A DNA stretch of 35,556 nt from Bacillota bacterium (GTDB lineage Bacteria > Bacillota > Dethiobacteria > Dethiobacterales > Dethiobacteraceae), in assembly GCA_012521405.1 (NCBI GenBank), contig JAAYMK010000007.1, positions 1 to 35,556 of the forward strand, read 5' to 3'. The notes under the pieces were generated by a model, which was given only the letters and a program-made list of their open reading frames with translations, was not told the DNA's origin and did not search any database. The position numbers were made by a program, and so were the translations under genes. Shown one piece after another: positions 2,063 to 9,063 of the stretch (position 1 is the stretch's first letter; every line of letters starts with the position of its first letter).

Positions 2063-2428
2063 TTAAAAGGCTGCATCAACACGTTCCCAAACAATTTCTG
2101 CCAGTCGTTGATCTATTCCCAGTACAGCAGCCAGCTTGATGTTAAGCTGTGGATGCTTTGCTTTTACTGCATCTAAAATGGCAGGTAAATCTTCTGTAAT
2201 ATGTATCCCATTATAGAGAAAAACAGGAACTACGGTTATCTCAGTTTTTCCTTGTGAGTTTAGCTCAGAAATTGCAGTTGCCACATCCGGTTCGGCCGCT
2301 TCCATAAAACTTACCTTCACATACTCCTGGGGCCGTAACAGCTGTACATAATTTTGCAATTCAAAAAGTGCTTTATTGGCTTCACTTCGCCTGCTGCCAT
2401 GCCCTACCAATAATACTGCTTTTGTCAT
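2063..2428 (-). CDS. cbiX: Sirohydrochlorin cobaltochelatase, short CbiX type
   Basis: It inserts Co2+ into sirohydrochlorin at the start of the anaerobic (early cobalt) cobalamin pathway. With 121 residues it is the small single-domain form (CbiX-S), which works as a homodimer. Seen: the N-terminal LLVGHGSRRSEANK with the first metal-handling His (residue 10), and VPVFLYNGIHITEDLP with the second conserved His near residue 75. The ATG follows a strong GGAGGAGGATC. The neighbours are a cobalt ECF transporter upstream and hemA/sirC downstream, which supports cobalt rather than iron as the metal. An iron-chelating SirB role is the main alternative and cannot be excluded from sequence alone. Confidence 0.9.
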   Translation of the reverse strand: MTKAVLLVGHGSRRSEANKALFELQNYVQLLRPQEYVKVSFMEAAEPDVATAISELNSQGKTEITVVPVFLYNGIHITEDLPAILDAVKAKHPQLNIKLAAVLGIDQRLAEIVWERVDAAF

Positions 2429-2484
2429 GATCCTCCTCCATTTACACTTATCATATCATTTCTAGATATTTTTAGAGAAGGTTT

Positions 2485-2904
2485 TTACAACACCTTAAGT
2501 TTTTGTTTACTTTTATTGCTAAAATACACACTGACAGCCACAGCCACCACTATAACCCCTATCACAACGGGAAGTTTAGGTAAGCTGCTTACTTTAACTC
2601 CTTCTTTATATTCTGCCCTGTGGCCCATGCCGTCATTGGCCACGGCACGGTAAACCTCTAAATTGGGATCAAAATAAAATTTACCTTTTTCGTCTACCAG
2701 GCCTTGGGCTAAAACTTTATCGTTTTGATCATAAAGTATTACTTCTGTGCTTGTGGAAAAACCGCCGCCGTCATACTCTACCCTGAATACTCCCGGCTCT
2801 TCCAATTTTAATAACATACCATGGGCTAAGGCCGTGCCACAGTACAGTAAAATAAATATAAGGCATGTAAAAATAACTGTTTTTTTGCTTACTTTTAAAT
2901 TCAT
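2485..2904 (-). CDS. NikL/CbiN-position accessory membrane protein of the ECF metal transporter
   Basis: This 139-residue protein has an N-terminal signal segment (hydrophobic residues about 9-26) ending in ALAHG, an exported domain of about 80 residues with a carboxypeptidase-regulatory/NikL-like look (VEYDGGGFSTSTEVILYDQ; a DEKGKFYFDP strand segment), then one C-terminal membrane helix (about residues 110-129) and a basic tail. That architecture is the one described for the NikL component of nickel/cobalt ECF transporters, not the two-helix CbiN. The His directly after the predicted cleavage site could take part in metal hand-over (inference). Its ATG touches the stop of cbiM with no gap, so the two are translationally linked. 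The family assignment rests on architecture and position only. Confidence 0.7.
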   Translation of the reverse strand: MNLKVSKKTVIFTCLIFILLYCGTALAHGMLLKLEEPGVFRVEYDGGGFSTSTEVILYDQNDKVLAQGLVDEKGKFYFDPNLEVYRAVANDGMGHRAEYKEGVKVSSLPKLPVVIGVIVVAVAVSVYFSNKSKQKLKVL

Positions 2905-3513
2905 CTAATCACCCTTTACAGCAATCCAGCTTTTTTTATTCTTTTCTAAAAACTGTACGGCAAAGGCGGTAACAATTGTTTCCACCACTAAAATTGGTAA
3001 GTGCCCCAACATGACAATTTTAACTACGGAAAAATCACCGGCGGCAAATCTTGAATCTGACAGTACCAGCAAAATTATCACCGCAATAACAGTAATTACC
3101 ACTGAAACTGCACCGGCTATACCTCCCCTGACTAGTGTTTTCAGATTAGGCAGCTTGCAGTAAAGCAAGTAAGACAAGTATGCCGGGATTGACAAAATTA
3201 ATGTATTGGCTGCCAAAGCCGTTAATCCGCCGTGTCTAAGTAATAAGGCCTGCAATAAAAGGGCTGGGAAAAAAGCCAGAGGCGATTTTTTTCCCAGAAT
3301 AATCCCGATGAGGCCGCATAACAGCGGGTGTACAGAAGTGGGCGATACAGGAATGGAAATCAGTGAAACTGCAAAGAACGTACCTGCCATTAAACTAATC
3401 TTGGGGATCTCTTCTTCTTTAATCCCTTTAGCCGCCACTCCCATGGCGACAACTGCTGCGCCGTATGTAGCTGCAACGACGGGAGCTGTTAGGACACCAT
3501 CGGCGATATGCAT
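2905..3513 (-). CDS. cbiM: Cobalt ECF transporter substrate-binding membrane protein CbiM
   Basis: CbiM is the integral-membrane S-component that binds the metal ion. The sequence starts MHIADGVLTAPVV, the family's hallmark N-terminus; in CbiM/NikM proteins the first residues including His2 coordinate the metal. For this reason, and because AGGAGG lies exactly seven bases upstream of the ATG at 3513, I start here and not at the in-frame TTG two codons earlier, which would bury the metal-binding N-terminus. Several hydrophobic helices follow, with PVSPTSVHPLLCGLIG carrying another conserved His near residue 60. 202 residues is usual. It lies between the His-rich small protein and the NikL-like gene. 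Confidence 0.93.
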   Translation of the reverse strand: MHIADGVLTAPVVAATYGAAVVAMGVAAKGIKEEEIPKISLMAGTFFAVSLISIPVSPTSVHPLLCGLIGIILGKKSPLAFFPALLLQALLLRHGGLTALAANTLILSIPAYLSYLLYCKLPNLKTLVRGGIAGAVSVVITVIAVIILLVLSDSRFAAGDFSVVKIVMLGHLPILVVETIVTAFAVQFLEKNKKSWIAVKGD

Positions 3514-3531
3514 AAACAAACCTCCTCAAAG

Positions 3532-3867
3532 CTAATAATCATGGTCGTGGTTATGATCATGGATGGTGACGTTCATGCTGCCCTCATGTTCCCGCAAGGG
3601 CAAAATTCGTTTTTCATCTTCTGTAAAGATCTGCATATTGTTTTCATGCGGCTTATGTTCCGTCACTACAGCATAAATGCTGTCTTCCCCAATAACAAAA
3701 TAAATATGTCCATGCTCTTTATCCATTTCCAAAGTATAGGCGTAATCAGGTTTGGCTACAAATTCACCACCTTGTTTAACAAATTCTTTTTCGGTGACCA
3801 TTAAATGAGCCGCATAATGCTCCAGATCCCCAATATTGTCTCCCATTTTAATAAAACCGACATCCAT
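3532..3867 (-). CDS. Small His/Asp-rich protein of unknown family in the cobalt operon
   Basis: I do not recognise this 111-residue protein. It has no signal peptide or membrane helix, is acidic, and is rich in His: EHYAAH near residue 16, DKEHGHIYF near residue 49, VTEHKPHENN near residue 68, and a C-terminal tail HDHNHDHDY like the metal-binding tails of metallochaperones. The core looks like a small beta-rich domain. It lies between cbiO and cbiM, 18 bases before the cbiM start, so a cytosolic role in holding or handing over Co2+ (or sensing it) is the natural inference. The start is uncertain: a perfect AGGAGG at 3904-3909 is followed after one base by an ATG in another frame, while the ATG at 3867 has only a weak site. 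Confidence 0.7.
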   Translation of the reverse strand: MDVGFIKMGDNIGDLEHYAAHLMVTEKEFVKQGGEFVAKPDYAYTLEMDKEHGHIYFVIGEDSIYAVVTEHKPHENNMQIFTEDEKRILPLREHEGSMNVTIHDHNHDHDY

Positions 3868-3930
3868 GGTTTCATCTTCACACGGTCCAAAATGGAAAAC
3901 ATTCCTCCTTTAAATTTTAATTTGCCTGTT

Positions 3931-4743
3931 TTAACCTTTGTACTCTAAACTGAATTTTGCCAGTAACTCTTTCGCTTGAGTTATATTTCTTGGTTTGCAG
4001 TTAAAATGGGAAAACAGTTCATAGAGCAAGGGTTTTGTTAGACCTGCCCTAACATAAACTTCTTCTTTAGTCAGCACTTCTTCCACCGGGCCTGCCTCGA
4101 TGATTTTTCCTGCATGTAAAACTACCACTTCCTCGGCCCATTCATATGTTAGATCCACATCATGGGTGGAAAAGACAATGGTCTTGTCCGCTTTCACCCA
4201 GTCATCAAGCAAGCTTTTAAAATATACAAGTGACGGGCCGTCTAAACCGGAAAAAGGTTCATCGCATACAATCATACTTGGTTCCAGCACAAGTAAACCG
4301 GCAATGGCTACTTTCTTTTTTTGTCCTAAACTTAATTGATAGGGCGGAAAAGACAGGAGGCTTTCAATCTGTAGAGCTTTAGCAATATTTCTAATGCGTG
4401 GCTCTTTTTCGTCTTCAGGAAATCTATAATTATCTAAGCCGAACTTTATATCGTTATAGACAGTGGTGGAAAAAATTTGGTGGTCAGGGTAGTCAAAAAG
4501 GAATCCCACTTTGCGTCTGATGTGAGCAAGATTTTCTTGTTTAACCGGCAGATTAAATACTTCTACCGAACCTGTCTGCGGAAGGTGCATACCGTTTAAA
4601 TGGTACAAAAGAGTGGTTTTGCCGCTGCCGTTCAGGCCAAGGATGGCTGTTTTTTTCCCTTTTTTGATGTTTAAATTAATATCAATTAATGCTTGATACC
4701 CATTAGAGTATGTAAAATTTAAATTGCAGATTTTTATTGCCAT
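3931..4743 (-). CDS. cbiO: Cobalt ECF transporter ATPase CbiO
   Basis: This is the ABC ATPase that powers the CbiMQO importer from the cytosolic face. Seen in order: Walker A GLNGSGKTT (about residues 37-45), a Q-loop region FDYPDHQIF typical of ECF ATPases, signature LSLGQKKKVAIAG near residue 138, Walker B MIVCDEPFSGLD near residue 160, and the switch His in STHDVD near residue 193. The 270 residues match the family, with a short C-terminal extension. The ATG lies one base after the cbiQ stop. With a single ATPase gene, it probably acts as a homodimer on CbiQ. Confidence 0.95.
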   Translation of the reverse strand: MAIKICNLNFTYSNGYQALIDINLNIKKGKKTAILGLNGSGKTTLLYHLNGMHLPQTGSVEVFNLPVKQENLAHIRRKVGFLFDYPDHQIFSTTVYNDIKFGLDNYRFPEDEKEPRIRNIAKALQIESLLSFPPYQLSLGQKKKVAIAGLLVLEPSMIVCDEPFSGLDGPSLVYFKSLLDDWVKADKTIVFSTHDVDLTYEWAEEVVVLHAGKIIEAGPVEEVLTKEEVYVRAGLTKPLLYELFSHFNCKPRNITQAKELLAKFSLEYKG

Positions 4744-4744
4744 C

Positions 4745-5443
4745 TTACACCGTCCTATCTATAAGCAGCACAAAAATTAAAATAATTGTCAATAGGCCCG
4801 CCTCACAAAGTATTTTTTTGTTTTTTATCCCCTTAGTTGGAGGCAAGCCCTGAAAGCCTCTGGCCTTCATGGCCTTAAAAACCCTCTCGCTGTGAGAAAT
4901 GCTTTTAAGAAAAAAACCCCCTATCCATTCCCCGAAAATACTGATGACGGACCCTCCCCTTCTTTCGGCAATACCCCTGCCGGCCAGTGCTTTTCTGCCA
5001 ATTTGCACATCTGCGCTTACCATGTGGCAATATCTGAAAGTCAGGACTAAAATACTGTTAAACAGGGGCGGCAATCCCAGCTTTAGAACTCCTTCCACCA
5101 GGTAAAGGGCTGAATGACGGGACATAACTGCCCCCAGGCACAGTGCTGAAACAAAAATTTTACCGCTAACCATTATGGTAAAATCCAAATCAGCCAAATC
5201 CTGGGCCAAAATAAATCTGATTACTGCCGGCAAGAGTAAGAGAGCCATAAAGGGCAAAACAGATCGGACAAACTTGTATAAATCTTTATATTCACATGTA
5301 AAAAAGCAATATATTGTTACCAAAACAGCAGTAATCAGCAACAGCCGCAAACTTGTGATGAAAGAGACAAAGAACAGTAAAACCAGCAGTTTAACCAGCG
5401 TTTCTTCTGGTTGTTTTGCAGCTTTGATTTTAATCACCTTCAC
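4745..5443 (-). CDS. cbiQ: Cobalt ECF transporter transmembrane coupling protein CbiQ
   Basis: CbiQ is the T-component that couples the ATPase CbiO to the metal-binding CbiM. Seen: several hydrophobic helices in the first two thirds, then the cytosolic coupling helices with the family's Ala-x-x-Gly signatures, RKALAGRG and ERVFKAMKARGF. The frame is open back to a TTG at 5509, but that would add a Pro-rich leader encoded partly by the terminator T-tract, so I place the start at the GTG at 5443 (a second GTG at 5437 is equally possible). It is the first gene after the cobalamin riboswitch and terminator. A short GCCGGC hairpin lies between the terminator and the start. Confidence 0.88.
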   Translation of the reverse strand: MKVIKIKAAKQPEETLVKLLVLLFFVSFITSLRLLLITAVLVTIYCFFTCEYKDLYKFVRSVLPFMALLLLPAVIRFILAQDLADLDFTIMVSGKIFVSALCLGAVMSRHSALYLVEGVLKLGLPPLFNSILVLTFRYCHMVSADVQIGRKALAGRGIAERRGGSVISIFGEWIGGFFLKSISHSERVFKAMKARGFQGLPPTKGIKNKKILCEAGLLTIILIFVLLIDRTV

Positions 5444-5507
5444 TTCTTCTCTTTCATGTTTTTTTGGTTGCCGGCTTTTTGCCGGCGGTGGTTCCGGCCC
5501 CGGCAAC

Positions 5508-5543
5508 AAAAAAAGTCTCCCAGCAAAACGCTAAGAGACTTTT
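5508..5543 (-). terminator. Intrinsic terminator of the cobalamin riboswitch
   Basis: On the minus strand the arms AAAAGTCTCTTAGC and GCTGGGAGACTTTT pair (14 pairs including G-U) around a GTTTT loop and run straight into a T-tract. It sits between the B12 box and cbiQ, as expected for a riboswitch that stops transcription when B12 is bound. Confidence 0.88.
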
Positions 5544-5576: not shown

Positions 5577-5615
5577 GATTTATGACGAATTTGCTCCCCT
5601 TTCGTCCATAAACCA
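5577..5615 (-). promoter_or_regulatory. Second hairpin in the riboswitch expression platform
   Basis: Between the aptamer and the terminator, GGTTTATGGACGAA pairs with TTCGTCATAAATCC (one bulged base) around an 11-base loop. It may act as an antiterminator-side or anti-antiterminator element. This role is inferred; only the pairing is seen. Confidence 0.5.
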
Positions 5616-5620
5616 CACTA

Positions 5621-5777
5621 ATCCAAGGCAGGTCTCCTGGCTTACGGTTCATCCTCCTCCCAGCCTTCCCAGGTGTAAAAACCCAGTGGCATCCAGGGAT
5701 TCGTCACCGATCACAGTGGTGGGTCCGCGACGGTTTTTCACCGTACTTCCCTATTCTCCCTTTTCAGGGCACCTTAG
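5621..5777 (-). promoter_or_regulatory. Cobalamin (B12) riboswitch aptamer
   Basis: The minus strand carries the conserved landmarks in order: GGTGCCC at the 5' end, GGGAATAGGGAA-like purine segments, GCCACTGGG, GGGAAGG, and the B12 box AAGCCAGGAGACCTGCC at 5627-5643. A sigma-A promoter lies just upstream and an intrinsic terminator downstream, and the first genes are cobalt-transport genes, a classic target. Adenosyl- or other cobalamin should reduce expression of the whole operon. The exact ends of the aptamer are approximate. Confidence 0.96.
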
Positions 5778-5811
5778 ATTATCCATATTCAATTTTCCCT
5801 TAACAATTAAA

Positions 5812-8919: not shown

Positions 8920-9063
8920 AAAAAATCTCATTCCCTTCCTAACTGTCCCGGTCCCAAAGGCTCCAAGCAGTTATCTGGGTTGGTAGGATATTATGTTTTT
9001 ACCTCTTAGCAATTGGTGCAGTTTGCTGTGCAATACCGCCCTTTTTTGCTATTTTAGCACGAG
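8920..9063 (-). promoter_or_regulatory. Candidate structured leader RNA upstream of the pantothenate operon
   Basis: On the minus strand, TAACTG (8974 region) pairs with CAGTTA (8940 region). These enclose a small hairpin in which GGAGCC faces GGGACC around a TTT loop, and CCC/GGG pair outside. The intrinsic terminator follows and then the ribosome site of the first pan-operon gene, which is the layout of an attenuator or riboswitch. A cis-regulatory RNA called the pan motif is known upstream of pantothenate genes in Firmicutes; I could not confirm its consensus here. No clear promoter was found in the stretch. Confidence 0.35.

Follow-up and report, generated by a model that had tools for sequence, protein, structure and literature searches.

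To our knowledge, it is not well understood how ECF transporters for cobalt and nickel acquire their metal outside the cell, above all in systems that have NikL but neither CbiN nor NikK. CbiN, the small accessory of CbiM in cobalt ECF systems, has two transmembrane helices. NikK, NikL and CbiN have been described as accessories of nickel and cobalt ECF systems (PMC2667541, PMC7689651). For zinc, the streptococcal Pht proteins, including PhtD, and AztD are described as extracytoplasmic scavengers that hand the metal to a binding protein (PMC3842936, PMC6689063). COG0523 proteins with His stretches and WD40 neighbours have also been described (PMC2770081).

The stretch of Bacillota DNA analysed here (35,556 nucleotides, hereafter the window) contains an operon with the gene order riboswitch, cbiQ, cbiO, a 111-codon ORF, cbiM, a NikL-like gene, cbiX, hemA and a sirohaem-synthesis gene (Table 1). 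The ORF runs from ATG to TAG and its product ends in ...IHDHNHDHDY. Histidine makes up 11 of its 111 residues and is thus enriched over the background frequency of 1.9% (binomial P ~1e-5). Unlike CbiN, the protein has no transmembrane or long hydrophobic segment. Membership of a known family was rejected: for the window protein, Pfam and NCBIfam gave nothing at E<=1 and the PDB nothing credible, and sequence searches of the three databases with its full-length relatives were likewise negative. The preliminary description, which reported an unrecognised His-rich protein between cbiO and cbiM of a B12-controlled operon, is thus borne out: the profile searches matched no characterised family, and a cobalamin riboswitch stands at the operon head. 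Its coordinates, 3532-3909, are right for the end of the ORF at 3532, but 3909 is the edge of an open frame set by the in-frame stop codon TAA at 3912-3910, and the start lies at 3867.

Table 1. Features of the cobalt ECF operon in the window, listed from the operon head
Feature	Coordinates	Strand	Evidence
Cobalamin riboswitch, operon head	5610..5791	-	Rfam RF00174, 124.7 bits, E 3.8e-31
CbiQ (ECF T component)	4745..5509	-	Pfam PF02361, E 2.6e-11
CbiO (ECF ATPase)	3931..4743	-	Pfam ABC_tran, E 3.7e-27; NCBIfam TIGR04521, E 1.7e-63
Strong Shine-Dalgarno-like sequence AAAGGAGG	3904..3911	-	Sequence; 36 bases 5' of the first in-frame ATG
In-frame codons NVFHFGPCEDET, no start codon	3868..3903	-	FHFGPCEDET, against FHFGACEDET in an intact relative
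His-rich 111-residue protein with His/Asp tail, N-terminally truncated family member	3532..3867	-	
CbiM (S component)	2905..3513	-	Pfam PF01891, E 1.1e-47
NikL-like ECF accessory subunit, exported and membrane-anchored	2485..2904	-	NCBIfam NF058648, E 1.1e-9 (at 38.5 bits short of the curated cut-off, which is 100; relatives show the same gene in this position)
Short CbiX/CfbA-type sirohydrochlorin chelatase	2063..2428	-	Pfam CbiX, E 2.9e-28

Comparison of the ORF with its closest relative gave pN 0.19 and pS 0.70, a constraint equal to that on cbiM, cbiO and nikL in the same genome pair; the domain has therefore been under strong selection at the protein level. A chance ORF is ruled out by this purifying selection together with the existence of homologues. 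The mechanical call of cbiM at 2905-3519, with TTG at 3519 as start, is probably wrong, and ATG 3513 behind AGGAGG yields MHIADGVL, the N-terminus typical of CbiM. Elsewhere in the window, an Rfam 'pan' motif lies at 8939-9042 on the minus strand, 5' of a pantothenate gene cluster.

The window protein belongs to an unnamed family, normally membrane-anchored, whose members go with uptake systems for cobalt, nickel and zinc in both bacteria and archaea; a profile built from other members, with the window sequence excluded, matched it at E=1e-30. A lipobox cysteine is present in all 16 full-length relatives examined, at residue 17-27. The collected relatives range from 123 to 293 residues in length and share a conserved domain of ~127 residues that begins at EWSG. 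Most have a His-rich linker, and most have histidine at or near the C-terminal end. Relatives were found in further genomes of the class, several of which are titled Syntrophomonadaceae, and in other Bacillota, among them the isolate Anoxynatronum buryatiense. The distribution is patchy: homologues occur in 6 of 60 near genomes, counting the window's own, and in 8 of 398 genomes of a phylum-wide Bacillota sample, while within the class 20 of 98 genomes gave a match, about half of these by signal peptide only. Genome matches at E about 1e-4 (e.g., L031-L038), in which the lipoprotein signal peptide alone aligned, were discarded. Two of the lipoproteins (L014:5476-6369 and L080:990-1901) have an extra N-terminal domain (TAYVHGDHWHGSLP...LGVALAEGAEEGIVS...) with a metal-binding look and no Pfam match. 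On a plasmid of Alkalihalophilus pseudofirmus (L102:3588-4631), a decayed lipoprotein copy adjoins a decayed NikL-like gene, with a YncE-like lipoprotein gene near.

The neighbourhood of these genes ties the family to cobalt and nickel ECF importers, as had been suspected from the position of the window gene: the majority of the standalone relatives are neighbours of such ECF genes. Eight relatives (L008, L010, L011, L013, L014, L015, L080, L085) sit between cbiO and cbiM, as in the window, and in five further loci (L009, L012, L077, L078, L079) cbiM/nikM-type genes are adjacent in another arrangement. A cobalamin riboswitch lies 5' of the operon in L008, L010, L011, L013, L015 and L085, and a second one immediately 5' of the lipoprotein gene in L008, L010, L015 and L085; in L009 such a riboswitch precedes cbiM-lipoprotein-nikL. 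Distances between lipoproteins correlate with those between the CbiM proteins (Mantel r 0.39, p 0.02; identical nearest neighbour in 11 of 14), as expected for co-inheritance. In one genome (G178) the family gene is ~2.6 kb away from the ECF operon, and the standalone members L081 and L082 have no metal genes nearby. The locus L085 additionally contains two CobW/COG0523-like GTPase genes near its ECF operon (2277-4885) and a Fur-family-like gene at 964-1389.

A described counterpart by gene context is NikK (PF10670, DUF4198) of the NikKMLQO nickel/cobalt systems, an accessory whose gene likewise accompanies cbiM/nikM and nikL where CbiN/NikN is absent (PMC2667541). However, the present family consists of lipoproteins that do not have the NikK architecture and show no sequence match to PF10670. 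NikK was found in none of the family's ECF operons examined, and a PF10670 search of the window's genome returned nothing. The related genome G012, which lacks the family, has a cbiM-cbiQ-cbiO-nikL operon that begins with a NikK-type gene (L087).

The window copy itself is truncated. It lacks ~47 N-terminal residues comprising the signal peptide and lipobox, which all 16 full-length relatives have, the His linker, and the EW.G strand, which is near-invariant in the other members; D27, H100 and E104 are all retained. In the closest relative (L075/L076) this N-terminal part is intact and reads MKTKFLALVLVVTVGLFLGGCGGHEHDHDHAHGGFEWIGEFELTAGEYLFHFGACEDETMDVGF..., and aligned against it the open frame in the window starts ...NVFHFGPCEDETMDVGF.... 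The two proteins are 67% identical over the shared part, and CbiQ, CbiO, CbiM and NikL of the same genome pair are 50-66% identical (62-66% for CbiM, CbiO and NikL). Only 63 bases separate cbiO from the ATG in the window. The 10 codons just 5' of this ATG differ from those of the closest relative by four synonymous changes and one nonsynonymous change, which indicates that they were translated until recently, and the Shine-Dalgarno sequence at 3904-3911 appears to have been stranded when the original 5' end of the gene was lost. An out-of-frame ATG at 3902-3900, right behind the Shine-Dalgarno sequence, was rejected as a start; it encodes an unrelated 33-residue peptide. Faster evolution of the window copy was also considered, and its five unique departures against one in the closest relative are not significant (p 0.22). 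A profile search of the window's genome revealed one copy only. As the N-terminal motif is missing, any function of the window copy is doubtful, and without export signal and first strand it probably no longer does the job of the lipoprotein as annotated.

Since the upstream codons are still conserved, the truncation is either recent or a sequence error in the draft. An error of sequencing or assembly, with an intact lipoprotein gene in the organism and a contig that has lost its 5' end, is conceivable although unlikely. The draft genome comprises 165 contigs, decay of the domain is confined to its front end, and both the conserved codons and the stranded ribosome-binding site would fit; against this, ~140 bases are absent and no repeat was noticed that could account for a collapse, in the one genome available for the species.

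The same domain occurs in proteins of other kinds. A profile built solely from the Bacillota lipoproteins retrieves ZnuA, COG0523, membrane-protein and haloarchaeal forms at E values from 4e-21 to 3e-7 (computed for a database size of 100000). The domain lies between two ZnuA stretches, in the place usually taken by the His-rich loop, in two genomes of Bacillota (L083, L084) as well as in haloarchaea (L097, L098). In L083 and L084 the ZnuA gene is followed, as judged by eye, by genes for an ABC-type ATPase, a permease and a Fur-like protein. The ZnuA/AdcA-type proteins with a His-rich loop (PF01297) resemble the present family in that haloarchaea and family f25 hold the same domain there, whereas the window protein has no ZnuA fold. 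Likewise, COG0523/CobW proteins (PF02492 and PF07683; PMC2770081) of Paraburkholderia and Pantoea hold the domain as an insertion between their GTPase and CobW_C parts, each gene being followed by a WD40-type gene, whereas the window protein has no GTPase domain. Haloarchaeal lipoproteins also carry the domain, and one of their genes is immediately 3' of a urease operon. Finally, the domain is found in a membrane protein of Alicyclobacillus that has an HX4DH motif and whose gene lies two genes behind that of a metal-sensitive regulator. In the membrane protein at L104:4788-5699 the motif reads HSILPDH, the domain is inserted in a loop, and the membrane part is not recognised by Pfam. The window ORF was initially proposed as a new part of the CbiMQO/NikL system; the link to cobalt and nickel ECF importers stands, but the ZnuA and COG0523 forms show that the domain is not confined to cobalt ECF systems.

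In 17 divergent sequences D27, H100 and E104 never vary, and E6, W7 and Y94 hardly do (residues numbered as in the L008 domain in alignment A7). An HxxxH pair in a helix is an additional feature of most ECF-linked members. AlphaFold2 modelled the intact L008 domain as strands and one helix (mean pLDDT 92.3, pTM 0.86) and gave lower scores for the window protein (pLDDT 80.8, pTM 0.75). A structural search returned a best PDB match at E 0.078 (TM 0.37) and a best viral-library match at E 0.044, neither of which is meaningful. Because Asp27, His100 and Glu104 are invariant in all settings, a transition-metal-binding hand-off domain is proposed, with these residues as a candidate metal site on the strength of their conservation. 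It seems somewhat probable that this is a portable, putatively metal-binding domain, marked by the invariant Asp/His/Glu and the EW.G start, that has been used by at least four metal machineries in bacteria and archaea (Co/Ni ECF lipoproteins, ZnuA proteins, COG0523 GTPases and the HX4DH membrane protein), where it would stand beside, or replace, their usual His-rich segments.

Beta-sandwich-like domains are frequent adhesion or docking modules. A domain that is itself free of metal and holds metal-binding His-rich linkers and tails near the transporter would accord with the mainly beta-stranded fold and with the His-rich stretches that flank it in most members. Nevertheless, an invariant Asp, His and Glu over several kinds of protein would be unusual for a mere spacer, and the COG0523 forms of Paraburkholderia and Pantoea have almost no His stretch beside the domain, so that such a structural role is judged unlikely.

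It is still less probable that the short protein made from ATG 3867 works in the cytosol as a metal buffer or chaperone. In favour of this reading, the protein has no signal peptide as annotated, its ORF is intact and conserved like its operon partners (pN 0.19), the closest relative has a shorter His tail, and the domain does exist in the cytosol within COG0523 GTPases. Against it, all full-length standalone Bacillota relatives examined are lipoproteins, the EW.G strand that is near-invariant in every architecture is gone, 36 bases separate the strong ribosome-binding site from the start codon, and the 10 conserved codons 5' of the proposed start indicate that selection acted on a longer protein. 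The cytosolic part of the importer envisaged in the preliminary description is therefore probably a misreading, as relatives in the same position are exported lipoproteins whose N-terminus the window copy lacks.

The likely reading is that the window gene is a 5'-truncated member of the lipoprotein family, intact members of which would capture Co(II) or Ni(II) for CbiM. An intact lipoprotein would be anchored outside the cell via its lipidated cysteine, use its His-rich ends and the Asp/His/Glu site to bind Co(II) or Ni(II) on the outside of the membrane, and pass the ion to CbiM together with NikL, in place of the NikK of other operons. The setting would be B12-riboswitch-controlled cobalt operons and a few nickel-type operons, and the same domain may do an equivalent job in zinc systems when inserted in ZnuA or COG0523 GTPases. 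This proposed role, surface capture followed by transfer to an importer, corresponds to that of the Pht proteins and AztD in zinc systems (PMC3842936, PMC6689063); these share no homology with the family, yet resemble it in being His-rich and encoded next to an importer. The window protein, as read from its sequence, has no HxxHxH triad of the Pht type, including in the tail HDHNHDHDY, and AztD is a beta-propeller unrelated in sequence to the family.

The window gene gives a real lead to a metal-handling domain that has been overlooked and that the profile libraries used here do not recognise. The family appears to be undescribed: no description of the domain was found in the literature searched, part of it available in excerpt and with subscription journals thinly covered, so that an earlier description is possible. 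We rate the unrecognised domain as the new element, accessory metal-capture proteins being known as a kind. If the proposal is true, one common hand-off module would serve cobalt, nickel and zinc systems, and the domain offers defined residues for mutation.

In the genome of the closest relative, the cbiQ-cbiO-cbiM-nikL operon has its own riboswitch and the lipoprotein gene is elsewhere, 3' of a ribonucleotide-reductase-like gene (assigned by eye, with a riboswitch of its own). There it precedes the genes of an ABC importer (Peripla_BP_2), joined in G212 by a CobN-like chelatase. At L075:3223-8428 and L076:903-12647, the ribonucleotide-reductase-like gene, the family lipoprotein and a BtuFCD-like importer form a module headed by a B12 riboswitch, to which L076 adds apparent ExbB/ExbD-like genes and the CobN-like chelatase. 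This module is possibly a cobalt or corrinoid uptake system.
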